Source: Polaribacter sp. L3A8
GTDB taxonomy: Bacteria; Bacteroidota; Bacteroidia; Flavobacteriales; Flavobacteriaceae
DNA length: 64,000 nt
Direction of reading: 5' to 3'
Assembly: GCF_009796785.1 (NCBI RefSeq)
Contig: NZ_CP047026.1
Coordinates: 186,001-250,000, forward strand
A program made the position numbers and the translations under genes. The notes under the pieces were generated by a model that worked only from the letters and a program-made list of their open reading frames with translations, did no database searches and was not told the DNA's origin. Within the stretch, counting starts at the first letter, position 1. The number at the start of each line of letters is the position of its first letter. This document shows, in pieces, positions 3,299-63,172 of this stretch.

Positions 3299-3343
3299 CA
3301 GTACAGAACAGGATGGATTAGAACAAATGTATTTATAAATTTA
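3299..3343 (+). promoter_or_regulatory. Regulon promoter site 1 (upstream of GntR regulator)
   Basis: Direct repeat CAGTACAGAA / CAGGATGGAT at 3299-3318, then 17 bases, then the -7-like TAAATTTA at 3336-3343. Transcription would begin near 3350, close to the start codon at 3362. A TACCTTTG at 3291 with a TTTG about 17 bases before it could be a second, ordinary promoter. Confidence 0.6.
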
Positions 3344-3347
3344 CAAA

Positions 3348-3367
3348 CGTAACAGAACAGAATGGGT
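3348..3367 (+). promoter_or_regulatory. Second repeat copy overlapping the GntR start codon
   Basis: CGTAACAGAA / CAGAATGGGT resembles the site at 3299-3318 (7/10 in the first half, one mismatch to consensus in the second) but has no -7 element behind it. It spans the ATG at 3362. It could be a feedback operator; chance is possible. Confidence 0.3.
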
Positions 3368-4363
3368 AGTAATAAAATTTCTTTAATAATAAAACACCAA
3401 GGAGATATTCCTAAATATCAACAATTAGTAAATGCAATTAATGATGCTATAGCAAAAAATCTTTTAAAGAAAGGAGAGGTTTTACTTTCTGTTAATGCTG
3501 CCTGTAAATTATATAATTTATCTAGAGATACTGTATTTAAAGCTTATACAATTTTAAAAGACAATGGAGTTGTAGATTCAGTACCAAATAAAGGGTATTA
3601 TGTTGCAAATGATACTAAAAAGGTATTGTTGTTATTAGATACGTTTAAAGCTTATAAAGAAGTTTTATACCATTCGTTTGTAAATAACCTACCCAATAAT
3701 GTAATTACCGATGTGCAATTTCATCATTATAATATAGATAATTTTAAAACTATTTTAAATAGTTCTAAAGGTAAATATTATAAATACGTTGTAATGACTT
3801 TTGATCATGTTGATGTACCTGCTGTACTATCAGATATAGAAGATGAAAAGTTGTTACTAATAGATTGGAATGTACATTCTAATAGTAATAATAACTATGT
3901 GTTTCAAGACTTTGGAAAAGCTTTTTTTGAAGTCTTAAAAAGTGCAGAAAATGTATTTAGAAAATATAAAGAAATCGTTTTTTTATATCCAACCTATACC
4001 TATCACTCCATAGAAACAATTACTTATTTTAAAAAATATTGCGAATTATTTCAGTTCAATTATACAGTGGTAACAGAACCGAGTATGTTTAAAGTAGAAG
4101 AAGAGGTAGCCTATATAAGCACAAGTGATAGAATGTTAGGTGTCTTTTTAGAACAATGTAGAGCTAAAGATTTAGAGCCTGGGGTAAATGTTGGCTTTCT
4201 ATCTTATAATGAAACGCCTATGAAAAAATTTATTTATAAAGGAATTTCAGTAGTTTCAACCGACTTTAAAGAATTAGGTACCAAAGCAGCAGAGTTTGTT
4301 ATGCAAGAAAAGCCAATGCAATATTACGTTCCAACTAAATTAACATTAAGAGAATCATTATAA
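3362..4363 (+). CDS. GntR-type transcriptional regulator with periplasmic-binding-like sensor domain
   Basis: The 333-residue protein has an N-terminal winged helix-turn-helix (residues 13-80; PKYQQLVNAINDAI, LSRDTVFKAYTILK, PNKGYYV) of the GntR family. The C-terminal part has the LacI/sugar-binding-protein fold pattern (DVPAVLSDIEDEKLLLIDW, GVNVGFLSYNETPM, FKELGTKAAEFV). Such hybrids are common sugar-responsive regulators in Bacteroidetes. It lies 3 bases before the xylulokinase gene, so xylose or a derivative is the likely effector and the xylose genes the likely targets. Its promoter carries the locus-wide direct repeat, so the xylose module may be switched on together with the polysaccharide genes. 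Confidence 0.85.
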   Translation: MGSNKISLIIKHQGDIPKYQQLVNAINDAIAKNLLKKGEVLLSVNAACKLYNLSRDTVFKAYTILKDNGVVDSVPNKGYYVANDTKKVLLLLDTFKAYKEVLYHSFVNNLPNNVITDVQFHHYNIDNFKTILNSSKGKYYKYVVMTFDHVDVPAVLSDIEDEKLLLIDWNVHSNSNNNYVFQDFGKAFFEVLKSAENVFRKYKEIVFLYPTYTYHSIETITYFKKYCELFQFNYTVVTEPSMFKVEEEVAYISTSDRMLGVFLEQCRAKDLEPGVNVGFLSYNETPMKKFIYKGISVVSTDFKELGTKAAEFVMQEKPMQYYVPTKLTLRESL

Positions 4364-4366
4364 ATT

Positions 4367-5851
4367 ATGTATTACTTAGGATTAGATATAGGGAGTTCTT
4401 CTATAAAAGCAGCATTAGTAGAAATAGCAACAGGAAAAAGTTTAGGAGTTGTACAAGAACCTAAAGAAGAAATGAGCATGTATGCTCATAAAAACGGTTG
4501 GGCAGAACAAAAACCAAGCGATTGGTGGTTGCATATTTGTAATGCCATTACAAGTTTAAAAAAACAATACAACGTAAGCAGAACTCAAATAAAAGGTATT
4601 GGTATTTCGTATCAAATGCACGGTTTGGTTTTGGTAGATAAAAAAGGAAATCCACTTCGTAAAAGTATTATTTGGTGCGATAGTAGAGCCGTAGAAATTG
4701 GTCACAAAGCTTTTGCAGAAATTGGCGAAGAAAAATGTGCATCACATTTATTAAACTCACCAGCAAATTTTACAGCATCTAAATTAAAATGGGTACAAGA
4801 AAATGAGCCTGATATTTACAATCAGATTCACAAATTTATGTTGCCAGGAGATTATGTGGCGTACAAATTCTCAAACAAAATAAACACTACCATATCAGGG
4901 CTATCAGAAGGTATCTTTTGGGATTTTAAAGAAAACACTGTTGCAGCGTTTTTATTAGAATACTATGGAATCGATAAAAATTTGGTGCCAGATATTGTAG
5001 ACACTTTCGGAATTCAATCTTTCGTAGATGAAAAAGGAGAAGCAGAAAGCGGAATTGCAACCGGAACACCAATTCTTTATAGAGCAGGAGACCAACCCAA
5101 TAACGCGTTATCTTTAAACGTATTTAACCCAGGCGAAGTTGCAGCAACAGGTGGTACATCTGGCGTTGTCTATGCCGTAACTGATAATTTATCTGGTAAA
5201 GAAAGTACCCGAGTTAACAATTTTGCACACGTAAATTATGCTACAGAAAATAAAAGAATTGGTAAACTATTAAACATCAACGGAGCCGGAATTCAGTACC
5301 GTTGGCTGTTAAATAACTTAGCTGTAGATTCTTACGAAGAGATGAATAATTTAGCATCAGAAATCCCTGTAGGATCAGATGGCGTATGCTTAATTCCTTT
5401 TGGTAACGGAGCAGAACGCATGCTAAATAACAAAGAAATTGGAACTCGTATTGTAAACATGAACCTTAATAATCACCACAAAGGCCACATGTGTAGAGCC
5501 GCCTTAGAAGGCATTGCATTCTCATTTGTTTACGGAATGGAGATTTTAAAATCAGACGGCATAAAGCCAAGTGTTATTAGAGCAGGAAACGATAATTTGT
5601 TTCGTTCAGAAATATTTGCAAACACTGTAGCAACGCTAATTCAACAAGAAATAGAAATTTACAATACCACAGGTGCCATTGGTGCAGCACGAGCGGCAAA
5701 TTTACACAAAGGAGATTTTGAAGCTTTCGGAAAAGCTATTATGGACAATGACCATGTAATGACTTTTATGCCTTTTAAAGACCAAAAACCGTATTTAGAA
5801 GCTTATAACAATTGGAAAAAGGAATTAGAACTGGTTTTAAAAAATAAATAA
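4367..5851 (+). CDS. xylB: Xylulokinase (FGGY kinase)
   Basis: The 494-residue FGGY-family kinase has the N-terminal phosphate-binding loop GLDIGSSSIKAAL, the sugar-contact segment YQMHGLVLVD, and RAGDQPNNALSLN with the probable catalytic base Asp242; the ATP-binding half ends in GAIGAARAA. It phosphorylates D-xylulose to xylulose 5-phosphate in the cytoplasm. It follows the GntR gene by 3 bases and precedes xylose isomerase, the normal xylAB pairing, which separates it from rhamnulokinase or glycerol kinase. A dispersed repeat lies between it and xylA. Confidence 0.93.
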   Translation: MYYLGLDIGSSSIKAALVEIATGKSLGVVQEPKEEMSMYAHKNGWAEQKPSDWWLHICNAITSLKKQYNVSRTQIKGIGISYQMHGLVLVDKKGNPLRKSIIWCDSRAVEIGHKAFAEIGEEKCASHLLNSPANFTASKLKWVQENEPDIYNQIHKFMLPGDYVAYKFSNKINTTISGLSEGIFWDFKENTVAAFLLEYYGIDKNLVPDIVDTFGIQSFVDEKGEAESGIATGTPILYRAGDQPNNALSLNVFNPGEVAATGGTSGVVYAVTDNLSGKESTRVNNFAHVNYATENKRIGKLLNINGAGIQYRWLLNNLAVDSYEEMNNLASEIPVGSDGVCLIPFGNGAERMLNNKEIGTRIVNMNLNNHHKGHMCRAALEGIAFSFVYGMEILKSDGIKPSVIRAGNDNLFRSEIFANTVATLIQQEIEIYNTTGAIGAARAANLHKGDFEAFGKAIMDNDHVMTFMPFKDQKPYLEAYNNWKKELELVLKNK

Positions 5852-5862
5852 AAAAAAGAATG

Positions 5863-8908: not shown

Positions 8909-10944
8909 ATGAATACAAAAATAGACCAACAAGCGGCTGATAATATTAGAGCTTTAGCAGTTGCAATGGTAGAAAAAGCAAACTCTGGGCATCCTGGAGG
9001 ACCTATGGGAGGTGCAGATTTTATGCACATCTTATATTCAGAATTTTTTAATTTCGATCCTTCAGATATGACATGGTCATTTAGAGATCGTTTTTTTATG
9101 GATGCAGGGCATTTATCAACCTTAATGTATGCGCAATACTATCTTTTAGGCAATTACAAAAAAGAAGATGTTGCTAATTTTAGACAATGGGGTTCAATTA
9201 CTCCAGGGCATCCAGAAGTAGATGTTGCAAGAGGTATCGAAAATACATCAGGACCTTTAGGGCAGGGCATACTATGGGAGTTGGTGCAGCAATTGCTGCA
9301 AAATTTTTACAAGCTCGTTTTGGTAATTGGATGGATCATAAAATTATGGTTTTATTTCTGATGGGAGTGCAAGAAGAAATATCTCAAGGAGCAGGAAGAA
9401 TTGCAGGTCATTTAGGGTTGAACAATTTTATTATGTTCTACGATTCTAATGATATCCAATTATCGACATCAACAGATGAAGTTACTTCAGAAGATACAGC
9501 CATGAAGTACAAAGCTTGGGGCTGGAAAGTAGTTACTATTGATGGGCATAACCATGATGAAATAAGGAAAGCATTAAAAGATGCGAATGCCGAAACAGAA
9601 AAACCAACCTTAATTATTGGTAAAACAATTATGGGGAAAGGTTGTGTAACATCCGAAGGGAAAACTTTTGAAGGTGAATGCGAATTACACGGACAACCTA
9701 TTGGAGCCTCAGGAGCAGATTATACAAAAACTTTATTAAATTTAGGTGCAAACCCAGAAAGTCCATTTGATATTTATGGTGATGTAAGTGAATTTTATCA
9801 AAATATATTACAAAGAAAAATAGTAGAAGCAAGAGATAAAAAAGTTGACATTTCTATTTGGAGAGAAGCTAATTCTGAATTAGCAACAAAATTAGATTTC
9901 TTTTTATCAGGAGAATTACCAGCATTAGATTTCGAAGGAATAACCCACAAAGCAGGTTTAGCATCAAGAGCAGCTTCTTCTGGAGTGTTAGGGTATTTGG
10001 CTGAAAATGTAGAAAACATGATTGTTTCTTCTGCAGATTTATCAAATTCTGATAAAACAGACGGATTCTTAAAGAAAACGCACGCACTTAAAAAAGGAGA
10101 TTTTAGTGGATCATTTTTACAAGCTGGAGTTGCAGAATTAACGATGTCTTGTATCGCAAATGGAATTGCGTTACATGGAGGAATTATTCCTGTTGTGGCA
10201 ACTTTCTTTGTGTTTTCAGATTATATGAAACCAGCTATTCGTTTAAGCGGAATTCAAGAATTGGGTGTAAAATATGTGTGGACGCATGATGCTTTTAGAG
10301 TTGGAGAAGATGGGCCAACACATCAACCCGTAGAACAGGAAGCACAAATTCGTTTGTTAGAAAAATTAAAAAACCACAGTGGAAATCCGAGTTTCATGGC
10401 TTTACGTCCTGCAGATTCTGCAGAAACAAGTGTTGCTTGGAAAATGGCTTTAGAAAATAAAAATACACCAACAGGTTTAATTTTATCAAGACAAGGCATT
10501 AAAGATTTACCAACCAAAGGAGCATCATCAAGATATCAAGAAGCATTAGCAGCAGAAAAAGGTGGTTATTTGGTAAAAGAAGTAGAAAATCCTGATGTAG
10601 TATTAGTTGCAAACGGATCTGAAGTAGCAACACTAGTAGCTGCAGCAGCAATTTTAGAATCAGAAAACGGATTGAAAGTAAATATTGCTTCTGTAATTTC
10701 TGAAGGAGTGTTTAGGTTACAATCTAAGGAATATCAACAAAGTGTTATACCTAAAAATAAACCATTATTCGGCTTAACTGCAGGTTTACCAGTAAACTTA
10801 GAAGGTTTGGTTGGTGATGCAGGTAAAGTATTTGGATTGGATCATTTTGGGTATTCTGCACCGGCAAATATCTTAGATGATAAATTTGGATTTACAGGAG
10901 AAAAAGTAAGCCAACAAGTATTAGAATATTTAAAAACAGTATAA
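8909..10944 (+). pseudogene. tkt: Transketolase, interrupted by three indels
   Basis: The whole gene is transketolase-like, starting MNTKIDQQAADNIRALAV with NSGHPGGPMGG, later YDSNDIQLST, the second-domain ALKKGDFSGS and GEDGPTHQPVEQ, but the frame breaks. At about 9265, GPLGQG should continue HTMGVGAA; one G of a G-run is missing and the frame changes. Near 9351-9374 two further indels compensate each other, so the conserved SDG-type thiamine-diphosphate/metal motif reads LMGVQEEIS instead of the expected SDGSAQEEIS. The two overlapping open pieces are 8909-9361 and 9187-10944. It would interconvert pentose and hexose phosphates after xylose entry. Either the gene is broken or the assembly has errors here; the rest of the protein looks well conserved, which favours error or very recent damage. 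Confidence 0.85.
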
Positions 10945-12660: not shown

Positions 12661-14385
12661 ATGAAAAATACTTCAAATTTTCTAGTCTTTAGAATACAAA
12701 AAACAACAATTATATTATTAGCTTTATCTGTCTTTTTTAGTTGTAAACAAAAAAAAGAAAAAGCTAATAATGAAGTAAAACCAAACATTGTTTTTATTCT
12801 TACGGATGATCAGCGTTGGGATGCTTTAGGGTACGCTGGTAATAAATTAGCATACACACCAGAAATGGATAAACTTGCAAAAAGTGGTGTGTTTTTTAAA
12901 AATACCATTGCTACCACGCCTATTTGTGCTGCAAGTAGAGCTAGTATTTTTAGTGGCTTGCAAGAGCGTACTCATAATTACAGTTTTACAACAGGTAATA
13001 TGAAAGAAGAGTATATGCAAAATGCCTATCCTAGGGTTTTAAAAAAAGCAGGATATTATACAGGTTTATATGGTAAGTTTGGTGTAAAATATAAAAACTT
13101 AGATTCTCTTTATAATACTTATGAAAATTACGATTTACGTTATGATCGTAAAGATATTACGAGTTATTATTATAAAAAATTAGGTAAAGATACTGTTCAC
13201 TTAACTCGATATACGGGAGAAAAAGGAATGGAGTTTATTAAAAATGCACCAACAGACAAACCTTTTTGTTTACAACTTAGTTTTAGTGCACCTCATGCAA
13301 GTGATAATACCGTAGAGCAGTATTTTTGGCAAGAAGAAAATAATCATGTTTTAGAAAACACCACTGTCCCTACAGCTAATATTTCTGAAGATATTTATTA
13401 TAACCGATTACCAGAAATAGTTAAAAGTGGTTTTAATCGTTTACGCTGGTATTGGAGAGATGATACTCCAGAAAAATACCAACATAGTGTAAAAGGATAT
13501 TACAGAATGATTGCTGGTATTGATAATGAAATTGGTAAAATTAGAAAAGAATTAGAAAAAAAGGGAGTTGCAGATAATACAATTATTGTTCTTATGGGAG
13601 ATAATGGTTTTTTCTTAGGAGAAAGACAAATTTCTGGTAAATGGTTAATGTATGAAAACTCTATAAAAGTACCTTTAATTATTTTTGATCCTAGAAATAA
13701 AGAACATAAGGATGTTGATGCTATGGCATTAAATATAGATATTCCGTCTACTATTTTAGACTTTGCAGGCGTTGATGCTCCAAAAACGTGGCACGGAAAA
13801 AGTTTAAAACCTTTTGTAGATTCTAATAATGCAGATTTAAAAAGAGACACTATTTTAATAGAGCATTTATGGGATTTTAAAAACATAGCACCAAGTGAAG
13901 GGGTAAGAACAAGTGATTGGAAATATTTTAGATATGTAAACGATAAATCTATTCAAGAATTATATAATTTAAAAGACGATCCAAGAGAAATTAATAACCT
14001 TATTAATGATACAAAATATCAAAAAGTTGTAACTAAACTACAAAATAAATTAGAAGAGTTAACAAAAAAATATAAAGATCCTTATCAATTTAATCCAGTT
14101 AATTTATCAGTAAACTTAAAAAATAATTTAGAGTTTAATTGGGCAACATCTAATAAAACACAAAAGCAAACAGCATATCAAATATTAGTTTCTTCATCAA
14201 TTGAAAGTATTAATAATAATATAGGCGATGTTTGGAATAGTGAAAAAGTAGAAAGTGCTGCCAATTCTAATATTAAATATGAAGGTTTAAAACTTGATAA
14301 AACAAAAACCTATTATTGGAAAATGCGTATCTATGATGAAATAAATAGAACAGGAAGTTATACAACACCTAAAAAACTTTTTTAA
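12661..14385 (+). CDS. S1-family sulfatase ending in a truncated GH78 N-terminal domain, lipoprotein
   Basis: The 574-residue protein has a lipoprotein signal (FFSC, Cys28) and then a full S1 sulfatase: [13 protein letters not shown] with metal-binding Asp49/Asp50, [10 protein letters not shown] with the formylglycine Cys89, GDNGFFLGERQISGKW and HGKSLKPF. After about residue 465 it has the Ig-like domain that begins GH78 rhamnosidases (YQILVSSSIESINNNIGDVW, TYYWKMRIYDE) and then stops. The protein at 21970 has the same order but continues with a complete GH78, so this copy has lost its rhamnosidase half. Sulfatase motifs are intact, so desulfation of a rhamnose-containing ulvan oligosaccharide is plausible. 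A hairpin terminator and a regulon promoter follow. Confidence 0.88.
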   Translation: MKNTSNFLVFRIQKTTIILLALSVFFSCKQKKEKANNEVKPNIVFILTDDQRWDALGYAGNKLAYTPEMDKLAKSGVFFKNTIATTPICAASRASIFSGLQERTHNYSFTTGNMKEEYMQNAYPRVLKKAGYYTGLYGKFGVKYKNLDSLYNTYENYDLRYDRKDITSYYYKKLGKDTVHLTRYTGEKGMEFIKNAPTDKPFCLQLSFSAPHASDNTVEQYFWQEENNHVLENTTVPTANISEDIYYNRLPEIVKSGFNRLRWYWRDDTPEKYQHSVKGYYRMIAGIDNEIGKIRKELEKKGVADNTIIVLMGDNGFFLGERQISGKWLMYENSIKVPLIIFDPRNKEHKDVDAMALNIDIPSTILDFAGVDAPKTWHGKSLKPFVDSNNADLKRDTILIEHLWDFKNIAPSEGVRTSDWKYFRYVNDKSIQELYNLKDDPREINNLINDTKYQKVVTKLQNKLEELTKKYKDPYQFNPVNLSVNLKNNLEFNWATSNKTQKQTAYQILVSSSIESINNNIGDVWNSEKVESAANSNIKYEGLKLDKTKTYYWKMRIYDEINRTGSYTTPKKLF

Positions 14386-14473
14386 ATAATCCTTTAGTTG
14401 GATTTTATGTTTTAATATTTGCTTCTTTTTTTAAGGAAAAGAAAAAGATATTTTAAATTTTAAAAGCAAATAA

Positions 14474-14503
14474 AAACACCATCTTAATTGATGGTGTTTT
14501 TTT
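14474..14503 (+). terminator. Terminator after the truncated sulfatase-GH78
   Basis: A 10-bp perfect stem (AAACACCATC / GATGGTGTTT) with a 6-base loop and T-run to 14503, only 6 bases before regulon site 2. Confidence 0.85.
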
Positions 14504-14509
14504 ACGTAT

Positions 14510-14554
14510 CAGGATAGAGCAGGACGGGTTTAGTGAAACTTGGACGTAAATTTA
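14510..14554 (+). promoter_or_regulatory. Regulon promoter site 2 (upstream of decayed T9SS enzyme)
   Basis: Direct repeat CAGGATAGAG / CAGGACGGGT at 14510-14529, 17 bases, then TAAATTTA at 14547-14554. The gene it served (14580) is now a pseudogene. Confidence 0.6.
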
Positions 14555-14579
14555 TTACCCAATTATTTTTTCTTGTTTT

Positions 14580-14890
14580 ATGAAAAAAAGTATAACTTTT
14601 ATGTATTATTTGTTTGCATTTTTTACTGTAAACGCATAAGTAACCTTGTTTACAGATTTTACAAATTCTAAAAAAAAAAACTGTTTAATGTTTGGACACT
14701 AGTAAATTGTATTAGACCAACAAAAGGAGCAGGAGTAAGACACGATATCGATGTTAATCTTATTAGAATGATTGGCGGAATTAACAAAATAAAAGAAGGA
14801 AAAGGATCACAAATTGATCTTACAAAATTTAATAAAGGTTTGTATTTTTTTAAAACAGATACCAAATCTTTTAAACTATTAAAACTTTAA
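14580..14890 (+). pseudogene. Decayed T9SS glycosidase, internal deletion, nonsense codon and frameshift
   Basis: An ATG at 14580 opens a signal peptide (MKKSITFMYYLFAFF, TVNA) that meets TAA at 14637, where the homologue at 45467 has AQVTL (a CAA to TAA change explains it). The frame continues VTLFTDFTNSKKK into an A-run, after which another frame carries LFNVWTLVN, then IRPTKGAGVR and NLIRMIGGINK. This matches LHNIWDVANRISP and MNIVRMVGGIRK of the 45467 protein. It then jumps directly to a sorting-domain end (IDLTKFNKGLYFFKT, stop at 14890). About 800 residues are missing. A regulon promoter is preserved just upstream. Confidence 0.8.
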
Positions 14891-14914
14891 CATACTATAT
14901 ATAATTATCAGAAT

Positions 14915-16294
14915 ATGAAAAATATTTTATCACTATTACTTTTTTTACTTTTACTTACTACTTCTAATGCACAAATAAAACACGGACTGCGAGATGAAAG
15001 TGGAAGACACGTTATTCCTAGAGGTTTTGTTATTGTTACAAACGCTGGCGATTTTAAAAATGAAGATTTTGTTAGAATGGTTAGAATGGGAGCAAACTAC
15101 CAAGTTGTGCGCTTAGAATTAGGTAAATTAAGTAATTTTCCGGGTGCTAAATTCGAACAAAGTTATTTAGATCAATTAGAACGTTTGGTAGAATTCGGAA
15201 AAAAAGTAGGCATTAAAACAGTTTTTAAAATGACGGTTTATGGTGTTAAAAAGTTCTCTTGGGAAGCTTTTTGGGCAAACAAAAATAATGAACATGAAAT
15301 TTATATGAATGCTTGGAAAAAAGTTTGGCATCATTTTAAAAATGAAGATTATGTTGTAGGTTATGACGTGGTTAATGAACCAAGAAAATTAACAATGAAT
15401 ATTTCTTATAAAGATTTAACTAATGATTATTTAATACCTGTTTATCAAAAAATAATAGACGAAAGTCAAAAAATTAATTCTAATAAAAAGATTTTAATTC
15501 AGTCTATTTTTATGAATAAAGGAGAAGGAGTCGATAACAATCAATATGCCGAAATAACGGCATCTGTAAATAGAAAAAACATTGTTTTTTCTCCGCACAT
15601 TTATCAAAATAAACAAGATTTGGTACAACCCGTAATGAGTCGTTTTGATAAAGAAGCAATAATGTTAAAAGCACCTATTTTAATTGGCGAATGGGGTTTT
15701 CCAACATTTGCTAAAACAGATACTACTTTAGTTGGTAACTTAGGGCAGTATAAATATAGAGAGCTTTATATAAAAACTGCTGAAGTTTTTGATCAAATGG
15801 GGGTAGGTAGTATAAAAGCATGGTTTTCTGGAAATCCTAGTATGCAAAATTTTATGCCCGGTGGACCATCAACTTGGGCTATATTTTCAGATAAAAATGC
15901 TGTTGGTACATCAGAAAGAAAATATATTACAGACATTATTGCAAGACCTTACCCACAAACAATTGCAGGAACTATTAATTCATTTCTTTTTAATTTTGCA
16001 ACAAGAACTTTAAATGTTAATGTTAAAACAGACAATAGCAAAGGAGCATCACAAATTTTTATAGGTGCAAATAGACACTATCCTGATGGGTTTTCTATAA
16101 TGTGCGGACCAGATGTAGTATTGGTTTATAATCCGCTTAAAAACGTAGGGTTAGAATTGGTAAAGGGACTAAACAAAACCAATATTTCTAACTTTATTTG
16201 GAATGAAAAATATCAACAATTAACCATTTTAAAATGGCCAAAAGATAACGAACAATTAAATTTAAAAATTGTTCCAGGTATCTATAAACAATAA
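14915..16294 (+). CDS. GH5-like secreted glycoside hydrolase with C-terminal GH5_C-type domain
   Basis: The 459-residue protein has a Sec signal peptide (cleavage near SNA-QI, residue 19). The TIM barrel shows clan GH-A signatures: VVGYDVVNEP with acid/base Glu155, FSPHIYQNK and ILIGEWGFP with nucleophile Glu269. The opening IKHGLRDESGRHVIPRGF resembles endoglycoceramidase-type GH5. The last 110 residues form a beta-rich domain. GH5 enzymes hydrolyse beta-glycosidic bonds; the substrate cannot be read. It lies 24 bases after the pseudogene and 6 bases before the GH43-like gene, so it may now be transcribed from regulon site 2. Confidence 0.8.
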   Translation: MKNILSLLLFLLLLTTSNAQIKHGLRDESGRHVIPRGFVIVTNAGDFKNEDFVRMVRMGANYQVVRLELGKLSNFPGAKFEQSYLDQLERLVEFGKKVGIKTVFKMTVYGVKKFSWEAFWANKNNEHEIYMNAWKKVWHHFKNEDYVVGYDVVNEPRKLTMNISYKDLTNDYLIPVYQKIIDESQKINSNKKILIQSIFMNKGEGVDNNQYAEITASVNRKNIVFSPHIYQNKQDLVQPVMSRFDKEAIMLKAPILIGEWGFPTFAKTDTTLVGNLGQYKYRELYIKTAEVFDQMGVGSIKAWFSGNPSMQNFMPGGPSTWAIFSDKNAVGTSERKYITDIIARPYPQTIAGTINSFLFNFATRTLNVNVKTDNSKGASQIFIGANRHYPDGFSIMCGPDVVLVYNPLKNVGLELVKGLNKTNISNFIWNEKYQQLTILKWPKDNEQLNLKIVPGIYKQ

Positions 16295-17608: not shown

Positions 17609-17637
17609 AAGAGTCTTTAAAAAATATTTAATTTTTT

Positions 17638-17690
17638 AACATTCAATATAAAATTGGCAAAATTGTCTTTTTATATTGAATGTTTTTATT
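17638..17690 (+). terminator. Terminator after GH43-like gene
   Basis: Perfect 15-bp stem (AACATTCAATATAAA at 17638-17652, complement at 17670-17684) followed by T-rich sequence. Confidence 0.8.
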
Positions 17691-17785
17691 TTTATAAATA
17701 TTTTAATTATGCATAAAATTAGAAGCTTATTGCTGTAAATACAGAAAGTTTAAACCTAGTTACTTACATTCTTAATTTTATTATA

Positions 17786-17830
17786 CAGGATAGAGCAGGA
17801 TAAGTAACACTCTTTATTAAACTAAATTTA
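17786..17830 (+). promoter_or_regulatory. Regulon promoter site 3 (no gene; short transcript)
   Basis: Direct repeat CAGGATAGAG / CAGGATAAGT at 17786-17805, 17 bases, then TAAATTTA at 17823-17830. A terminator begins about 45 bases later with no ORF between. Confidence 0.6.
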
Positions 17831-17836
17831 CAGTGT

Positions 17837-17912
17837 AGTTTTTTAAACAACATTAATTTTGAATTAGTATTTATTAAACACGTTTCTTTTAATTAAAAGG
17901 GACGTGTTTTTT
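17837..17912 (+). ncRNA. Candidate short RNA from site 3
   Basis: Predicted start about 7 bases after TAAATTTA; the end is the T-run of the hairpin at 17876-17912. It would be roughly 75 bases and holds no plausible reading frame. It may be a small RNA of the regulon or a scar where a gene between promoter and terminator was lost. Confidence 0.3.
17876..17912 (+). terminator. Terminator behind site 3
   Basis: Stem AAACACGT..CTTTT with AAAAG..ACGTGTTT around a 4-base loop (two mismatches), then eight or more T. Confidence 0.8.
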
Positions 17913-18017
17913 TTGTGAAAAATTTAACTAAAAATAACTTTCTTTATAATGTAGAAAAAAGTCATATAAGTAATTGGTTGTAAATATGTTATATTTTAAA
18001 AATTAACAGAAGGTTTT

Positions 18018-18050
18018 ATGAAAATTAAAAGTCAGATTTTAACAATATAA
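18018..18050 (+). pseudogene. Leader-like 10-codon ORF, possible start of a lost gene
   Basis: ATG at 18018 reads MKIKSQILTI and stops at 18048-18050. It looks like the first residues of a signal peptide, directly before site 4. Very weak evidence. Confidence 0.15.
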
Positions 18051-18052
18051 AA

Positions 18053-18097
18053 CAGGTGAATACAGGACAGACATCTTTCTTTCATAAAGTAGTTTTG
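18053..18097 (+). promoter_or_regulatory. Regulon promoter site 4 (no gene; short transcript)
   Basis: Direct repeat CAGGTGAATA / CAGGACAGAC at 18053-18072, 17 bases, then TAGTTTTG at 18090-18097, an exact match to TAnnTTTG. A strong terminator starts 35 bases later. Confidence 0.6.
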
Positions 18098-18103
18098 AAA
18101 CAT

Positions 18104-18176
18104 AAGGTTGTTTAACTTTATTGAATTAATTTACAAGTTCCCTTTGTCTCCCCCAAGACAAAGGGGCTTGTTTTTT
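18104..18176 (+). ncRNA. Candidate short RNA from site 4
   Basis: Predicted to begin about 7 bases after TAGTTTTG and to end in the T-run at 18171-18176, about 73 bases. Its 5' half (TTTAAC, TTGAATTAATTTA) resembles that of the site-3 transcript (TTGAATTAGTATTTA). No ORF. Same alternatives as for the site-3 RNA. Confidence 0.3.
18133..18176 (+). terminator. Strong terminator behind site 4
   Basis: Stem CCCTTTGTCT / AGACAAAGGG extended by ACAAG / CTTGT, C-rich loop, then six T. Confidence 0.85.
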
Positions 18177-18279
18177 ATAATGCTATCACCTAATACTTAA
18201 GCTTAAAAATAGCCTATCTTAAAAAATAAATTTTAGCTTGTCTGTAAAGTTTTCTTACTTATTGTTTATCAATGGATTG

Positions 18280-18323
18280 CAGTATAGGACAGGATTGTGT
18301 AATTTTCTTTTTTCTTATATTTA
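18280..18323 (+). promoter_or_regulatory. Regulon promoter site 5 (upstream of CBM6 pseudogene)
   Basis: Direct repeat CAGTATAGGA / CAGGATTGTG at 18280-18299, 16 bases, then TATATTTA at 18316-18323. Confidence 0.6.
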
Positions 18324-18374
18324 TTAATTATATTATCTTCTTCTTTGTTTTTAATTTCGATGAAATAAGAATAG

Positions 18375-19360
18375 GTAATAGAAGTTGAAGCATTAACTAC
18401 ATTAGAATCCTCTAAAATAAATAATATAAGCCTATTTTTAGATAACGTATTGGTCCGTTCTATCTCTACGGCTGCATTTAGATGGGGTTTTAATGAGCAA
18501 ACAGATACCTTATTAGAAAATATACAGGTACTTATGTTTTAAAATTAGTACTTACAGATAATAGAAATCAGACCTCAGAGACCTCAATAACTCTAGATAT
18601 TAGAGATTTCGTTTTACAACCTTACGGTGGTTCAGCTCATAAAGTTCCTGGAGTTATACAAATGGAAGATTATGATATTGGTGGAGAAGGCTTTGCTTTT
18701 CATGATTCAATAATTGGTAACACAGGCGGAGCGTATAGAACAGAAGTAGGAGAGGATGTAGATATTTCTGCAGCTGGATCTGGGTTTGTTTTAGGAAGTT
18801 TATCTGGTGGTGAGTTTACAAGGTATACCATAGATGTGGCTGAAGCAGGTAGTTATCAAATGTTGATAAATTATAAAAGGTTTTCTTCTAGCTCTAAACC
18901 TTTTTCGGCAAAAATATTGACTCAGGATTTATCAACATCAAAAGAATTATTTTCTTTACCAGCAGGGTCTACAACTTCTGGAATTGTAAAAATAGGAATA
19001 GGTGTTTTTGGAGATTATACATCGCCTAAATTTGACTTGCAAGCAGGAAAACAGGTGTTAGAACTTTATATTCCATCTGGAGGAGCAGGACCAAGTTATG
19101 ATTTTGTAACCCTAGAAAAAGTAGGAACATTAAGTACAACTGATGTAAATATTTTAGAAGAAAAGTTAAAAGTGTTTCCTGTACCTAGTAATGACGGTAA
19201 GTTTAATTTAAATAAATCGCATCAATGGAAAGTTTATTCAATTTTAGGTAGTTTAATAATAGAAGGTAACGGAAAACAGGTTGATATAAGTTCTTTTTCT
19301 AAAGGAATGTATTTATTAAAAATTGAAACAGGTGAAAATAAAAGACTGATATATAGGTAA
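18375..19360 (+). pseudogene. Remnant of a T9SS enzyme: Ig-like domain, CBM6-like domain, sorting domain
   Basis: The frame from 18375 reads VEALTTLESSKINNISLFL and VLVRSISTAAFRWGFN, an Ig-like domain common before CBM6 modules in flavobacterial agarases and lyases. It breaks at about 18515-18523. The domain then continues in another frame as TGTYVLKLVLTDNRN and TLDIRDF, leading into IQMEDYDIGGEGFAFHD, the CBM6-like start. The longest open piece is 18662-19360 (232 codons). It ends with a sorting domain (VDISSFSKGMYLLKIE) nearly the same as that of the 45467 protein (VDISSFSKGMYILKIG). No catalytic domain or signal peptide remains between promoter site 5 and the Ig-like domain. If translated from 18662 it would lack a secretion signal. 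Confidence 0.75.
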
Positions 19361-19393: not shown

Positions 19394-19427
19394 ATATGGC
19401 TCATCATTAAGATGGGCCATATTTTTT
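19394..19427 (+). terminator. Terminator after CBM6 pseudogene
   Basis: Stem ATATGGCTCATC / GATGGGCCATAT (one T-G pair), 5-base loop, then six T. Confidence 0.85.
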
Positions 19428-19486
19428 ACGTTAAAACTGTAAAACACATCAAAATTAACTTAATTATATGTTATTTTATCAAAAAT

Positions 19487-19530
19487 CAGTATAGAGCAGG
19501 ATGGTTAGTATATTTTAAGCCATTAATTTG
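19487..19530 (+). promoter_or_regulatory. Regulon promoter site 6 (upstream of T9SS surface protein)
   Basis: Direct repeat CAGTATAGAG / CAGGATGGTT at 19487-19506, 16 bases, then TTAATTTG at 19523-19530. The gene start follows at 19565. Confidence 0.6.
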
Positions 19531-19564
19531 GAGCCAATTAACAATTAAAATTAAAACAAACATT

Positions 19565-21846: not shown

Positions 21847-21891
21847 CAGGATAGAACAGGATACGATTTTACCACAACTAATTTACTTTTA
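21847..21891 (+). promoter_or_regulatory. Regulon promoter site 7 (upstream of sulfatase-GH78)
   Basis: Direct repeat CAGGATAGAA / CAGGATACGA at 21847-21866, 17 bases, then TACTTTTA at 21884-21891. The gene starts at 21970. Confidence 0.65.
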
Positions 21892-24900: not shown

Positions 24901-25500
24901 TTTGGATTAGTACCAGAAGAGCATTTTAAATCGGTTGTAGATTATGTAAAATCTAGAGGAATGGCTTGTAGTGTTTACGGATCGCAATTTTTAATGGATG
25001 GCTTGTATAATGCAGGTGAAGCAGATTATGCTTTAGAATTATTAGCAAGTAAAGCTAAAAGAAGTTGGTACAATATGATTCGTATTGGATCTACCATTAC
25101 TTTAGAAGCTTGGGATAATTCTTATAAAAATAATTTAGATTGGAACCATGCATGGGGAGCAGTACCTGCAAATGCCATACCTAGAGGTTTGTGGGGTATA
25201 AAACCTAAAACAGCAGGTTTTGAAGTAGCTACTATTAAACCTCAAATGAGTAAACTTAAATCTAGCTCTATAGAAGTACCAACGGTTAGAGGAACAATAA
25301 AAGCATCTTATAAATATAACGGACCAAGGTTGCAAACTTATGAAATTGAAATTCCTGGTAACATGGTTGCTGAGTTTTCATTAAACAACCTAGAAGGAAA
25401 AGATTTTATCCATAATGGACAAAAAGTACCTTCTGCTTTTAAAGTTGTAAGATTAGCTCCTGGAAAACACACAATTCAATTAAAAATAAATTCATTTTAA
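21970..25500 (+). CDS. Bifunctional S1 sulfatase - GH78 alpha-L-rhamnosidase
   Basis: The 1176-residue secreted protein (signal peptide ending IYS-QQ) joins two enzymes. Residues 30-480 form an S1 sulfatase: [13 protein letters not shown] with Asp41/Asp42, [10 protein letters not shown] with formylglycine Cys81, [16 protein letters not shown]. Residues 490-600 are an Ig-like domain ([20 protein letters not shown]). The rest is GH78: [16 protein letters not shown] (Asp764-Glu768 region, the usual acid motif), [20 protein letters not shown] and a C-terminal beta-sandwich. It should remove sulfate from rhamnose and then cleave the rhamnosyl bond of ulvan oligosaccharides. A sulfatase-GH78 fusion is known from the Formosa agariphila ulvan locus, by memory. 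It has its own regulon promoter and terminator. Confidence 0.93.
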
Positions 25501-25579: not shown

Positions 25580-25624
25580 CAGGTTATAACAGGATGGATT
25601 AAAAAAAACTTCAAATTATATTTA
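25580..25624 (+). promoter_or_regulatory. Regulon promoter site 8 (upstream of lyase-like gene)
   Basis: Direct repeat CAGGTTATAA / CAGGATGGAT at 25580-25599, 17 bases, then TATATTTA at 25617-25624. The gene starts at 25686. Confidence 0.65.
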
Positions 25625-32958: not shown

Positions 32959-33003
32959 CATGATACTACAGAATAGTTAAGTTAAAATTTCAAATTAAAT
33001 TTA
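32959..33003 (+). promoter_or_regulatory. Regulon promoter site 9 (upstream of the GH78 run)
   Basis: Weaker direct repeat CATGATACTA / CAGAATAGTT at 32959-32978, but with the exact 17-base spacing to TAAATTTA at 32996-33003. It would drive the long run starting at 33025. Confidence 0.5.
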
Positions 33004-45404: not shown

Positions 45405-45466
45405 TTTTAATTTGATAAATAGTTTGTATAAATAATATTAATGTGTATAATTTTAAATGTTTCAAA

Positions 45467-58887: not shown

Positions 58888-59940
58888 ATGCAAGCAATAT
58901 TAGGAGTCTTATTTCATTCTATAGGCGGCGTCGCAGCGGGTAGTTTTTACATGCCTTATAACAAAGTAAAAGGTTGGTCTTGGGAAACCTATTGGATGGT
59001 TGGTGGCGTTATGTCTTGGCTAATTGTACCACCTATAGCAGCTTGGTTAACCGTACCAGGCTTTGCAGAAATAATTGCAGCAAGTTCAAATACAATACTA
59101 TTAATTACTTTTGCAATGGGACTGCTTTGGGGTGTTGGAGGTTTGTCTTACGGGCTTGGTGTACGTTACCTGGGGATGTCTTTGGGTAATTCTGTAGTAC
59201 TTGGTTTTTGTGCTGCTTTTGGAGCTATAGTACCTTCCATTTATTACAATATTAATCCTGAAGCAGGAAAAACATCTTTTACAGATATGTTGGCCGATTC
59301 TGGTGGACAAGTTGTATTACTTGGTGTTTTAGTGTGTGTGTTAGGAATTGCAATTTGTGGAAAAGCAGGAGTTCTAAAAGAAAAGGAACTATCCGATGAA
59401 GAAAAAAAGAAAAGTGTATCAGAATTTAATTTGGTAAAAGGGTTAATAGTAGCTGTACTTTCGGGTATTTTAAGTTCTTTTTTTAGCTTTGGTATAGAAG
59501 CAGGGAAACCTTTAGCAGATGCAGCGGTAGCTGCAGGCTTCGATCATTTATATTCTAACAATGTTACATTTGTTGTTATTCTTTGGGGAGGGTTGGTTTC
59601 TAATTTAGTATGGACTACTTTGTTAAGTATCAAAAACAAATCATATAAAGATTTTACAAATAAAAGCACACCAATATCAAAAAATATTATGTTTTCTGCA
59701 TTGGCAGGAACCATCTGGTTTTTACAATTCTTTTTCTATGGAATGGGAGAAAGTAAATTGGGTAATGGTGCTAGTTCTTGGATTTTACATATGTCTACCA
59801 TTATTTTAACTGCAAACCTTTGGGGTGTTTATAGAAAGGAATGGGCTGGTGTTGCTAAGAAAACAAAATATACCATTACAGCCGGAATTTTAGTGATTCT
59901 TTTATCTGTAGTTTTAGTGGGAATAGGGAATTCTATTTAA
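58888..59940 (+). CDS. rhaT: L-rhamnose:H+ symporter RhaT
   Basis: The 350-residue membrane protein fits RhaT in length and pattern: LGVLFHSIGGVAAGSFYMPY in the first helix, the NKVKGWSWETYW loop, LLWGVGGLSYGLGVRYLGMSL, the cytoplasmic charged loop (LKEKELSDEEKKKSVSEF), GILSSFFSFGIEAGKPL and GMGESKLG. Ten helices are expected. It imports L-rhamnose with protons across the inner membrane, after periplasmic release by GH78 and GH106 enzymes. It ends the 27-kb run and is followed by a convergent terminator. Confidence 0.95.
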   Translation: MQAILGVLFHSIGGVAAGSFYMPYNKVKGWSWETYWMVGGVMSWLIVPPIAAWLTVPGFAEIIAASSNTILLITFAMGLLWGVGGLSYGLGVRYLGMSLGNSVVLGFCAAFGAIVPSIYYNINPEAGKTSFTDMLADSGGQVVLLGVLVCVLGIAICGKAGVLKEKELSDEEKKKSVSEFNLVKGLIVAVLSGILSSFFSFGIEAGKPLADAAVAAGFDHLYSNNVTFVVILWGGLVSNLVWTTLLSIKNKSYKDFTNKSTPISKNIMFSALAGTIWFLQFFFYGMGESKLGNGASSWILHMSTIILTANLWGVYRKEWAGVAKKTKYTITAGILVILLSVVLVGIGNSI

Positions 59941-60131: not shown

Positions 60132-60156
60132 ATTTTTATTTAATAATTTGTTTATC

Positions 60157-62199
60157 TTATTTTCTAATCAATTTATGCATTGTTGATTCTTTATCATTTG
60201 TTAAACGTAATAAATAGATACTAGATCTTGCTACGTTTTTAAAATTAAATTCAAGTGCATTTTGCCCCTCAGAAATTGTTTGCTTTAAGATTAATTGTCC
60301 TGTTAGGTTATATACTTCAGCTGAGGTATATTTTTTATTAACAGGTAACATTACATTAACAAGGTTCTTAAAAGGATTTGGAAATGTTGAAACTTTACTA
60401 TTAGTTTGGTTTGTATTTTCTGTAATAGTTTCTTGTTTTGGTTGTTGAGATTTACGAAGTGCGTTTGTACCAAAAACCTGAAACTCAGATAAGCCAACAT
60501 TATAACCAGATCCATTTGTAACTGTAAAACGAACAGCCGTTACGGTTTTATTAGCAAATGTAATTTCTTTTGCTGCTCCGTTGTTTGGTAATGCAGCTAC
60601 GTTTATTCTAGAACCATCACTAAATGTAAGTGTACCGCCGTTAATTTTATCGGTAGCATTTGGTCTATCAAACAAAACAACTTTGTTAATAGTATAAGAA
60701 GAATTCCAATTTATTTGAACGTAAGGGTTTGATTCTCCGTTACTAGCCCATTCACCATTTCCATGTTTACCTATAATACCGTCTGCTACTTTTTCTTTTG
60801 AAAAAGCATTATTAGGATACTGTGAAGATGCCGTAATACTACTGTTGTTAAGAGCAACGTTGCTGCTACTACTAGAGCCTCCAGAAGAGCCATACACTTC
60901 AAATTCAGACAACCCATTATTTAAACTATTTACACCATCGGTTACATCTAGTTGTACCCAAGTAATTGTTTTAGAATTAAAAGTAAACTCTTTTCCTTGA
61001 CCATTATTAAATAAAAAATCTACAGGAACTTGACTTCCATCGCTAAAATATAAAATACCACCACCAATAGCATCAACAGCATTTGGTCTGTCATAAAGAA
61101 TAATCTTGTTTACAGAAACAGGTTGATTCCAAGTAAGTCTAATTTTAGGTAACTTCTCACCATTACTAGCCCATTCTCCATTATTGTGCTGTTGTTTTAC
61201 CCCATCTATTGCTTTAGAACCAGAATAGTTTGCAGAATATTGAGAGGATACAGAAACTTGAGCGCTACGAGCTAAATTTCCACTAGTATTTGTTGGTGGA
61301 GGTGGAGGTGTGTTTTGAAATGCTGTATTAATAGCATTAGCATATTGAGCGGTTTGTGGTGTATTATCAAACTCATCATATATCCAAATAAAACCACCAC
61401 CAGCTTTAGAGCTACATGAGTTTTTCCAGTTTTGCATTACATTTTGAATTTGAGAAGGGCTTTCTCTGTTAGAAGCTCCCCATCTACCACCAATATTAGT
61501 AATACCAAAATCCCATTTAGTTTGGCAAGGGTTATTACCAGCACCACCTGCATAACACTGAATGTAATTTCTATCTACATTACCAGGGTATGCGGCATTA
61601 ACTTGCTGTACTAAGCTTCTCCAAAAACTATCTCTAGTGTAAGGTACAATAGCATTTTTAAATCCTAGGCTAGCCAACATTTTGGTAAAAGCAACGGTAG
61701 AAGCTAAGTCGTAAGTAACTTCATCATCATTGTTAAAGGCATCTACCATAGGAAAAGTTTCTCTTAACTTTTTAAAATTTTTATAAATGGTTGTTCCAGG
61801 TCCAAACCCTTCCGATTCATAAAAGTTTTTAAGTACGTTAAATGTTTGAGCTCCTGCAGCACCAATACCAAATTCTATACGATTTACACTTGTTGGTGCT
61901 TGTTTTAAGCGAGCAAGGTTGTTTACAAAATTGCCACTTTCTGGATCATTACCTCCAATATATTGACCATTATCAATAAGGTCAAAATCATAATTAAAAT
62001 TAATTTTACCACTTGGTTCAATATGTATAGTCCAAACAATAACCGTATTAAAGCCAGAGCTTCGTAATTCATTAATAGAAGTGTTGCTATTATAAATAGC
62101 GCCTCCGCCGTATACAGCAGATACTTGGGCAATTAAAATATTATTTCCTGCAAAAAACAAAAGAGCTGCAAGAATAATACTGTTTACTAATTTTTTCAT
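60157..62199 (-). CDS. T9SS protein: putative TIM-barrel domain plus two discoidin-like modules
   Basis: The 680-residue protein has a signal peptide (ILIA-QV). Residues 25-300 (AVYGGGAIYNSNTSINELRS, TVIVWTIHIEPSGKINFNYD, DAFNNDDEVTYDL, GGGFIWIYDEFDN) look like a barrel seen in 'coagulation factor 5/8 type' bacterial proteins; its activity is unknown to me, with acidic residues at NNDDE and YDEFD that could be catalytic. A PPPPPT linker follows, then two similar modules of about 130 residues (WASNGEKLPKIRLTWNQP and WASNGESNPYVQINWNSS, both with DRPNA), and a type A sorting domain (STFPNPFKNLVNVMLP). No regulon repeat was found upstream. It is convergent to rhaT. Confidence 0.7.
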   Translation of the reverse strand: MKKLVNSIILAALLFFAGNNILIAQVSAVYGGGAIYNSNTSINELRSSGFNTVIVWTIHIEPSGKINFNYDFDLIDNGQYIGGNDPESGNFVNNLARLKQAPTSVNRIEFGIGAAGAQTFNVLKNFYESEGFGPGTTIYKNFKKLRETFPMVDAFNNDDEVTYDLASTVAFTKMLASLGFKNAIVPYTRDSFWRSLVQQVNAAYPGNVDRNYIQCYAGGAGNNPCQTKWDFGITNIGGRWGASNRESPSQIQNVMQNWKNSCSSKAGGGFIWIYDEFDNTPQTAQYANAINTAFQNTPPPPPTNTSGNLARSAQVSVSSQYSANYSGSKAIDGVKQQHNNGEWASNGEKLPKIRLTWNQPVSVNKIILYDRPNAVDAIGGGILYFSDGSQVPVDFLFNNGQGKEFTFNSKTITWVQLDVTDGVNSLNNGLSEFEVYGSSGGSSSSSNVALNNSSITASSQYPNNAFSKEKVADGIIGKHGNGEWASNGESNPYVQINWNSSYTINKVVLFDRPNATDKINGGTLTFSDGSRINVAALPNNGAAKEITFANKTVTAVRFTVTNGSGYNVGLSEFQVFGTNALRKSQQPKQETITENTNQTNSKVSTFPNPFKNLVNVMLPVNKKYTSAEVYNLTGQLILKQTISEGQNALEFNFKNVARSSIYLLRLTNDKESTMHKLIRK

Positions 62200-62526
62200 T
62201 TCATTTAGTTTAAGTTAATTAATAAAATTTATTTATGGTATTAACTATTTGTTGCAAACCTTGTAGTACTTTTTTAATTAGTAACTAAAGGTTCTGAAGT
62301 TTAATCAGAAAGAAAAATACTAGTTTAAAATAATTTTTCTTTTAAAGGTGTTAAGATTTATAGGGTTAGTTGTTATATAATAATTTTGATATAGTGCAGT
62401 TGAGGGGGTGCTCTATACCAATAAGTAAGTCTGATTAAAACTTGTTAAATAGATAATATAGAAAATTATTGTATAGGGATGTTTATTTGATTAACACCAG
62501 CCTATAAAATTTAATATTTTCTAGCT
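62200..62526. other. Non-coding stretch upstream of the discoidin protein gene
   Basis: No gene or terminator seen. It should hold the promoter of the minus-strand gene, but I cannot point to a convincing TAnnTTTG with a spaced TTG. Confidence 0.4.
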
Positions 62527-62745
62527 TTAATAAGAATACGAATAAAATTGTGGCTTTCTGTCAAAATATTTTAAATTTTTGGTTAGGTTAGAGTAACTGA
62601 TTTTTGAATCTACAGTAGCAATATACTGTTTAGATCTTTGTTTATGTGTTGCCTTTTCTAAATCATTTTTAAGAGAAATGGACATAAAGAGTAACAAGAC
62701 TTTACTAAGTTTTGTTACTGTTAATAATTGAAATTTGTTTATCAT
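62527..62745 (-). pseudogene. Small ORF or remnant behind minus-strand regulon site 10
   Basis: 72 codons: MINKFQLLTVTKLSKVLLLF looks like a signal peptide, then a charged stretch (KATHKQRSKQYIATVDSK) with no recognised domain. It starts 37 bases downstream of the -7-like element of site 10. It may be the beginning of a lost secreted enzyme or a genuine small protein; the former is more likely since neighbouring sites also drive remnants. Confidence 0.3.
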
Positions 62746-62781
62746 TTTTAAGTTTAATTTAGTTATAAATCTTAACAGATC

Positions 62782-62825
62782 TAAATTACAGCACTATTTT
62801 TTTAAGAATATCCTGTACTGTCTGT
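62782..62825 (-). promoter_or_regulatory. Regulon promoter site 10 (minus strand)
   Basis: Minus strand: ACAGACAGTA / CAGGATATTC (plus 62825 to 62806), 16 bases, GTAATTTA (62789-62782). The first half is shifted by one base from consensus; the second half and spacing fit. Confidence 0.45.
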
Positions 62826-63128
62826 ACCTAGTTGTCTTTGGTTGTGTAGGTTACTTTAGAGTAATTGAAACAATAAAAAGCTTTTGTGTTTGTTTTTTTG
62901 TTGATTTAAGAAAATGCTACACAAAAATTAGAAATTAAATAAGAATAAATGTTTTTTAAACCTATTTACAAGATATATTATTCCTTAAATTGAATATATT
63001 TAACAAATTGTTGTTTTTTTAAAGCTGAAATTTTATGTAAGAAGTTATAGAAAAAGACAATAAGATCGACCTTGTTTTAAAAGTAAAAACAAAATAAAAT
63101 GTTAATATTAATCGTATAAAAAAAATCT
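62826..63128. other. Non-coding stretch between divergent sites 10 and 11
   Basis: AT-rich, no gene or hairpin recognised. A 67-codon open frame at 62735-62938 starts in and crosses site 10 and has no domain or ribosome-binding context. Confidence 0.5.
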
Positions 63129-63172
63129 CAGTACAGTACAGGACGACGGTATAAAATTATAAGATTAATTTC
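63129..63172 (+). promoter_or_regulatory. Regulon promoter site 11 (upstream of terminal GH78)
   Basis: Direct repeat CAGTACAGTA / CAGGACGACG at 63129-63148, 16 bases, then TTAATTTC at 63165-63172; gene start at 63200. Confidence 0.55.

Follow-up and report, generated by a model that had tools for sequence, protein, structure and literature searches.

What controls an ulvan locus in which a profile search finds no Y_Y_Y/hybrid two-component system (HTCS) sensor gene? The question is raised by a 64,000-nucleotide stretch of Polaribacter sp. L3A8 (G000:C1:186001-250000, hereafter the window), part of a host genome that is a single contig of 4,224,107 bp. A promoter element recurs in the window, a 10-bp direct repeat followed at a fixed distance by a -7 box, which an original prediction made from this DNA had called a locus-wide architecture. 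That scope was too small: the element marks a genome-wide regulon, occurs also in other classes of the phylum and has the rhamnose gene rhaEW as a recurrent member. We here propose that it is likely the operator half of an activator-dependent sigma-A promoter in an L-rhamnose regulon, read by a GntR-family protein that we call RhaR-G, which would provide a testable answer to the question above.

Results

Repeats of the CAG-N7-CAG type are present at all eleven coordinates named in the original prediction, and the fixed distance that it described holds: the -7-like box starts 37 bp from the repeat start in ten of them (17 bp past the 20-bp repeat), the exception being 18280 with 36 bp (a 16-bp gap). 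The summed match to TAnnTTTR at offset 37 is 59 of 66 over the 11 sites, compared with a mean of 27.4 and a maximum of 42 at random offsets in the same sequences (20,000 draws). The strict pattern CAGKAYAGRRCAGGA has 6 matches genome-wide, all within the window, and its reversed control has 0; CAGNA-N5-CAGNA pairs number 8 in the window versus a mean of 0.97 and a maximum of 4 in 30 Markov sequences. Taken alone, a CAG spacing of 10 does not stand out, because on the same strand of the window CAG pairs at distances 6 (10 pairs) and 12 (8 pairs) are equally common. With up to three mismatches an 18-bp pattern finds 42 genome matches versus 21 in the control, so weak repeats without a -7 box mean little; as this pattern is too loose, we used a 46-bp model that includes the -7 box (R1). 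Its 75 training rows include ten window sites, and the E-values of window sites are hence not independent. The eleven elements are as follows.

3299..3318 (+): direct-repeat element preceding the xylose operon (GntR, XylB, XylA, MFS); top R1 match in the genome (E 3.4e-6, training-set site)
3336..3343 (+): -7 box TAAATTTA belonging to the 3299 site; +1 predicted at about 3348
14510..14529 (+): direct-repeat element; -7 box 14547-14554; a short remnant with similarity to gene 45443-48028 lies downstream
17786..17805 (+): direct-repeat element; -7 box 17823-17830
18053..18072 (+): direct-repeat element with a weak first half; -7 box 18090-18097
18280..18299 (+): direct-repeat element; -7 box 18316-18323 (one base nearer); absent from R1 matches at E<=10
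19487..19506 (+): direct-repeat element; -7 box 19524-19531; upstream of a protein with a type IX secretion system (T9SS) tail, start 19565
21847..21866 (+): direct-repeat element; -7 box 21884-21891; upstream of a sulfatase/GH78 fusion
25580..25599 (+): direct-repeat element; -7 box 25617-25624; upstream of a protein with an ulvan-lyase beta-trefoil domain
32959..32978 (+): weak direct-repeat element; -7 box 32996-33003; upstream of the GH78 rhamnosidase 33025-36222
62806..62825 (-): direct-repeat element; -7 box 62781-62788; upstream of 60157-62199 (-); R1 E 2.9e-4, training-set site
63129..63148 (+): direct-repeat element; -7 box 63166-63173; upstream of a GH78 rhamnosidase starting at 63200

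The repeat itself is real and its consensus, as first written, was too narrow: the first repeat deviates at 18053, 25580 and 32959, and at 62806 (minus), which has the lowest repeat score (10.3), the first-repeat CAG is shifted by one base with the -7 box still in register. A GGAT/GGAC core is found in 10 of the 11 sites and GAAT at 32959. The statement that all copies are intergenic and face a gene or a remnant needs one correction, since 19487 lies inside the mechanical open reading frame (ORF) 19412-21295, whose better start is 19565. Remnants do lie behind some sites, as predicted: 14510 precedes a short one, and the 17786-18280 stretch seems to hold another.

The short remnant at 14380-14930 (+) has 66% DNA identity over 153 bases to the 861-aa gene 45443-48028, with the promoter element still ahead of it. 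The intergenic stretch of about 1 kb at 17609-18661 (+) holds three promoter elements (17786, 18053 and 18280) together with, judged by eye from a three-frame translation, what appears to be a disrupted 5' portion of the T9SS-tailed gene that starts at 18662.

In the same family, the relaxed pattern CAGNAYAGNRCAGGAYRG has 132 matches in 65 of 397 genomes, and the reversed pattern has 2. A chance origin of the element is ruled out by the reversed-pattern controls. Sixty neighbourhoods of 20 kb fetched from these genomes hold 70 sites, of which 67 have the next ORF on the same strand (median distance 88 bases) and 3 lie inside a mechanical ORF. After removal of two overlapping copies, the 68 distinct sites have T at +37 in 65, A at +38 in 64 and TA at +37/+38 in 63, followed by T at +41 in 58, T at +42 in 65 and G at +44 in 44. 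Between -22 and +57 nothing outside the repeat and the -7 box rises above approximately 0.3 bit, and no conserved separate TTG/-33 element appears. The five sites without TA at +37 comprise two longer arrays with the last pair in register (L091, L097), one site that is one base off (L146), one adjoining a GntR gene of the 333-aa type also found in the window (L110) and one without a clear box (L142). In arrays of 3-6 10-bp units the promoter-proximal pair keeps the 17 bp in 6 of 6 cases, hence the extra units grow upstream. In one neighbourhood (L094:9973-10069), two divergent copies separated by 5 bp together make up a large palindrome in the space between two genes, with a -7 box in register for each copy.

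Flavobacterial promoters have a -33 TTG with a spacing of its own. Mapped starts in Flavobacterium psychrophilum place TAnnTTTG at -12 to -5 (PMC9723704), and the placement of the box at -12 to -5 in the 3299 promoter follows the same source. Given this position, the repeat would cover approximately -49 to -32, with its centre near -40.5. The locked spacing to the -7 box supports the original view of a promoter-fixed regulatory element where an activator would touch the polymerase, and a centre near -40.5 is the class II activator position.

When clustered, the ORFs of the 60 neighbourhoods yield a kinase in 20 loci, an isomerase in 19, a 702-aa protein in 18, a sugar transporter and a GntR regulator in 17 each (the regulator at a median of 149 bases) and two clusters that we take, from their sequence starts, to be a lactate-dehydrogenase-like protein (11) and a mutarotase (10). 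The 702-aa protein, with the motif approximately 80 bases upstream, is a bifunctional rhamnulose-1-phosphate aldolase/short-chain dehydrogenase (NCBIfam, above cut-off) and corresponds to the RhaEW of PMC3870299. The best NCBIfam match of the isomerase is the L-rhamnose isomerase model, under its cut-off, and the kinase match is weak. Based on RhaEW, the isomerase and the kinase, the common theme is L-rhamnose, and sites lie upstream of rhamnose catabolic genes in many genomes. Ulvan is itself rich in L-rhamnose (PMC12858550), and the window also encodes GH78 and GH106 rhamnosidases. The expectation that a scan of the genome and of related flavobacteria would find polysaccharide-locus genes only did not hold, given that L-rhamnose pathway genes are also preceded by the element; an ulvan-only element is ruled out by the gene content of the 60 neighbourhoods.

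From GTDB genomes, 80 of 592 named rhaEW loci were fetched. Among these 80, the element is found in Algibacter, Maribacter, Arenibacter, Winogradskyella, Chryseobacterium, Lewinella, Cecembia, Indibacter, Mariniradius, Pontibacter and Dyadobacter, mostly with the exact 17-bp gap; outside Flavobacteriia, it stands upstream of rhaEW in Lewinella, Cecembia, Indibacter, Pontibacter and Dyadobacter. Both Pedobacter loci in this sample have a GntR gene and no motif was found in them.

In the host genome, the 18-bp pattern with up to two mismatches has 16 sites, 8 of them beyond the window; 7 of these 8 are outside ORFs and 6 have a same-strand gene start within approximately 210 bases. The R1 search, which scored 150 of 7123 first-look candidates and missed site 18280, gives at least 24 matches at E<0.05: the 10 inside the window are all training sites, and none of the 14 elsewhere is one. 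Twelve of the 14 outside targets were annotated (2819427 and 2100478 left out): rhaEW, a transporter, a cysteine-rich-domain protein of the lactate-enzyme type, a GH78, two GH2, two TonB plugs, a ThuA protein, a T9SS protein and two without a Pfam match at 1e-5. SusC genes preceded by the element are among the wider targets, and weak copies (E 0.35 and 0.75) stand ahead of two PL28-family genes approximately 600 kb from the window (G000:C1:851087-854122). Two tandem GntR genes (G000:C1:320177-321223 and 321315-322358), 70 kb past the window, are divergent from rhaEW at 322761, and sites 322494-, 322686+, 333243- and 333390+ flank both ends of this rha gene run. In the stretch G000:C1:2443172-2448392, a third GntR paralogue (2447349-2448392) lies beside an HTCS gene. 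Near it, sites 2428121, 2435080 and 2442869 share a ACAGGACAG-like variant.

The element co-occurs with one GntR subgroup, defined by profile A1 at a best E<=1e-135, a cut placed in the gap between 3.8e-137 and 8e-130. By profile search the subgroup is present in 80 of the 397 family genomes, and the exact motif occurs in 62 of these 80 versus 3 of the 317 without it (genome lists for these counts were compiled by hand). Restricted to the 95 rhaEW genomes, the counts are 62 of 79 with the subgroup versus 0 of 16 without (Fisher 2e-9). Of the 18 GntR-positive genomes that lack the exact motif, 16 were examined, and in each of them a near-motif precedes rhaEW. Fourteen of the 16 rhaEW genomes that lack the subgroup were examined as well (G207 and G298 left out; the stretches of G325 and G327 were short). 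Five of them combine a distant GntR (approximately 40% identity) with a GAAC-core repeat whose gap to the -7 box is unchanged; G020 pairs a distant GntR of Glu type (see below) with a match to the second half of the motif alone; in the remaining eight no motif was found, the stretches of G037 and G247 holding a partial GntR gene.

The core of the repeat also varies with the regulator. The GntR residue in the recognition helix (reference sequence SRDTVEKAY) could be read in 86 of 131 rhaEW loci, and 80 of these had a candidate site above the cut. Some named loci in this set duplicate unnamed ones (L150 and L201 are identical); the site finder ignored motif positions 13-17, and at L244 it chose a site out of register. 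Above the site cut, G stands at motif position 13 in all 68 loci with Glu in the helix and in none of the 10 with Val, a changed core at unchanged spacing in a GntR clade with another recognition-helix residue. Fisher's test gives 8e-13 for this contrast, a value that is overstated because each group is one evolutionary event. ACAGGAT is also present with the distant Glu-type proteins of L158, L223 and L229 (40-42% identity).

The window has a GntR gene of its own, at the head of the xylose operon.

3362..4363 (+): GntR-family regulator of the 333-aa type, heading the xylose operon; Pfam GntR 27.6 bits (cut-off 27)
3348..3367 (+): candidate operator of the 333-aa-type GntR, it overlaps both the start codon of this gene and the predicted +1; score 18.0

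In the genes that follow, XylB is a best match that stays under its cut-off and XylA is over its cut-off, after which come a transporter, a transketolase and a transaldolase. The GntR protein has 27-33% identity to the rhamnose group and 50-67% to four others; PF00392 is above the same cut-off also in L144 (45) and L110 (38.3), and PDB sequence matches of the GntR proteins include the AraR N-terminal domain and YvoA. Its AlphaFold model has a mean predicted local distance difference test (pLDDT) of 87.7 and finds TreR (4xxh, 1.7e-12) as the best Foldseek match, followed by PurR, CcpA and LacI; the Peripla_BP_3 match is weak and below cut-off. A LacI/periplasmic-binding sensor fold is thus predicted for the window protein by its model and for the rhamnose-type protein by alignment alone. 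For 9 of 10 related 333-type genes (in nine genomes) a CAGAAC-type repeat lies within approximately 56 bases upstream of, or over, the aligned gene start; the tenth has its best match, one of the ACAGGATAG type, 173 bases upstream. The repeat at 3348-3367 in the window resembles the CAGAAC type. The placing of the xylose regulator in the regulon therefore stands only in part: it is a GntR relative, and it has a different repeat at its own start. The xylose operon may be under dual control, with a rhamnose activator upstream and a xylose-type repressor over the start.

Discussion

Motif, rigid spacing, absence of a conserved separate -33 element, gene content, GntR co-occurrence and an altered core in one clade are direct observations. 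From them we infer binding, activation and effector: the repeat is very probably where a rhamnose-sensing regulator of the GntR type docks. RhaR-G would be a GntR-family protein with a winged-helix N-terminus and a LacI/periplasmic-binding-like sensor, which would bind two head-to-tail 10-bp units, CAGKAYAGNR and CAGGAYRGNN. The bound units would occupy approximately -49 to -32, in place of a -33 element and 17 bp ahead of TAnnTTTG, and the protein would recruit RNA polymerase in response to L-rhamnose or to a product formed early in its breakdown. The best candidates in the host are the tandem genes 320177-321223 and 321315-322358, a pair that would switch on the rhamnose pathway together with rhamnose-rich polysaccharide genes, including the ulvan locus.

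Several points weigh against this proposal. GntR proteins in general bind inverted repeats (PMC5320631), and the element is a 10-bp direct repeat, not the palindromic operator typical of GntR dimers; the family assignment rests on the protein, not on the site. The host has two adjacent RhaR-G paralogues, the third paralogue and the 333-type protein, any of which could serve the sites, and some host targets (GH2, GH3, ThuA) are not rhamnose-specific by name. The regulon is patchy, given that motif, GntR and rhaEW are all missing from two genomes of the host's genus (G131, G320). Three of the 65 motif-positive genomes (G019, G299, G344) are without the GntR subgroup, although the G019 site adjoins a 333-type GntR with its -7 box out of register and the G299 site is inside a mechanical ORF; in 6 of the 80 named loci a motif scoring >18 has no GntR match within the 6-kb flanks. 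As for the recognition helix, the five Glu loci below the site cut include two with a GAC core (L228, L239) and three without a visible motif (L243, L263, L264), as is the case for the Val locus L218 below that cut; two loci with other residues (Q, G) retain GGAT; and in the tree the Val and Phe groups each form a single clade.

The same operator and GntR protein could instead act in repression over -33, with release by rhamnose, a reading that we consider unlikely. The repressor mode is typical of GntR and LacI-sensor proteins, related 333-type repeats sit at their own gene start, which is a repressor position, and dimer binding to inverted repeats is the general GntR habit (PMC5320631). Yet a repressor needs neither a spacing fixed to one base, which 65 of 68 promoters have (two counted from the last pair of an array), nor the last-pair register that 6 of 6 arrays keep, and the lack of a conserved separate -33 element predicts a weak promoter that needs help. 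It is more doubtful still that the window sites are read by the window's own 333-aa-type GntR rather than by distant rhamnose regulators. It is the nearest GntR gene, with site 3299 directly upstream, but the exact motif occurs in only 1 (G019) of 18 genomes with a best profile match of approximately 1e-117 to 1e-130 (mostly 333-type by score range, not gene by gene; G020 is not), and the CAGAAC-type repeats at 9 of 10 relatives' starts differ from the GGAT/GGAC core of ten window sites. As the reader of all sites this protein is rejected, on the CAGAAC-type start repeats and the co-occurrence of the motif with another subgroup.

Of the three regulator classes in the original prediction, the winged helix fits and the AraC-type and hybrid two-component classes are not indicated. 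That an AraC-type or HTCS regulator reads the repeat, as in Bacteroides polysaccharide loci, is very improbable. HTCS sites are direct repeats (PMC3878776), an AraC gene (31942-32817) adjoins site 32959 and two of five HTCS-like host genes are near sites. However, HTCS repeats average 21 bp (PMC3878776) against a 10-bp unit here, and the 22 bp upstream of the repeat hold nothing conserved above approximately 0.3 bit. No AraC cluster is among the ORF clusters common to at least 3 of the 60 neighbourhoods (judged by the listed starts), relatives of the window AraC occur in 2 of the 80 named rhaEW loci, both motif-free, and 3 of the 5 genes with Y_Y_Y and HTH_18 have no model match below E 1 within 50 kb among the candidates scored. 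The AraC/HTCS reading was rejected on cluster content, the rarity of AraC relatives and the positions of HTCS-like genes. Equally remote is a second repeat that serves as the -35 element of an alternative sigma factor: the rigid spacing to the -7 box would suit it, but that box is the sigma-A TAnnTTTG consensus (PMC9723704), and upstream arrays of up to 6 units together with GntR co-occurrence fit a DNA-binding regulator, with no sigma gene having been looked for.

Known systems resemble the proposed GntR activator in part. The DeoR-family RhaR regulons (Rodionova 2013, PMC3870299) share L-rhamnose, imperfect direct repeats with 10-11 bp periodicity, the rhaEW gene (in several phyla) and, in some cases, lactate dehydrogenase, but their regulator is DeoR, not GntR, and their lineages are others; the Bacteroides rhamnose regulator described there is of AraC type with 21-bp periodicity. 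In the 60 neighbourhoods the recurrent regulator is GntR (no search was aimed at DeoR). MocR proteins likewise use a GntR DNA-binding domain on direct repeats, with several characterised activators, but have an aminotransferase-like sensor and, where characterised, direct repeats two or three turns apart rather than one (PMC5320631); the proteins here have 333-348 aa and a predicted LacI-like fold, without an aminotransferase-like C-terminal domain. FucR and ManR of Bacteroides thetaiotaomicron are GntR-family monosaccharide regulators of the same phylum that differ in their sugars, fucose and mannose (PMC3878776), a likeness taken from their description. Bacteroides HTCS regulons also have direct-repeat sites at polysaccharide loci, but with an AraC-type domain, a 21-bp average spacing and a membrane sensor (PMC3878776). 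The 10-bp unit does not correspond to the approximately 21-bp HTCS repeat, and the AraC linkage to sites expected of an AraC-type RhaR was not found. In the open-licence PMC literature we found no description of the element, nor of a GntR-type rhamnose regulator in Flavobacteriia. A GntR repressor for alginate was reportedly described by Dudek in 2020.

Through RhaR-G, scattered rhamnose-rich polysaccharide genes, perhaps including the PL28 lyases, would be linked to the free sugar and not to a membrane sensor. The regulon would also supply an L-rhamnose-responsive promoter set for Bacteroidota, and the GntR family would gain a mode of action, probably activating, that uses one-turn direct repeats. 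More speculatively, and with somewhat less than even confidence, Bacteroidota may have a whole class of GntR activators bound head-to-tail with one unit per turn, locked 17 bp from the -7 box where -33 would be, in which the recognition helices and cores of paralogues (Glu with GGAT, Val or Phe with GAAC) form a monosaccharide code that drives sugar pathways and distant polysaccharide loci such as that for ulvan.

Other observations

Two further rhamnose genes are encoded in the window.

2918..3235 (+): L-rhamnose mutarotase RhaM; Pfam rhaM 2.1e-29
58888..59940 (+): L-rhamnose-proton symporter RhaT; Pfam RhaT 1.1e-72

RhaT is in the plus-strand gene run after the 32959 promoter, which is assumed to be a single operon. 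In the xylose operon, the transketolase is split over two overlapping frames, 8909-9361 and 9187-10944 (+), of which the first matches Transketolase_N profile positions 1-119 and the second 118-334 together with the later domains. The gene at 12661-14385 (+) encodes a sulfatase that ends in a Rha78A-type Ig domain. A sulfatase/GH78 fusion from another genome matches it in its first half, with 57% identity over 576 residues, and the window protein is perhaps a truncated relative of the fusion at 21970-25500.

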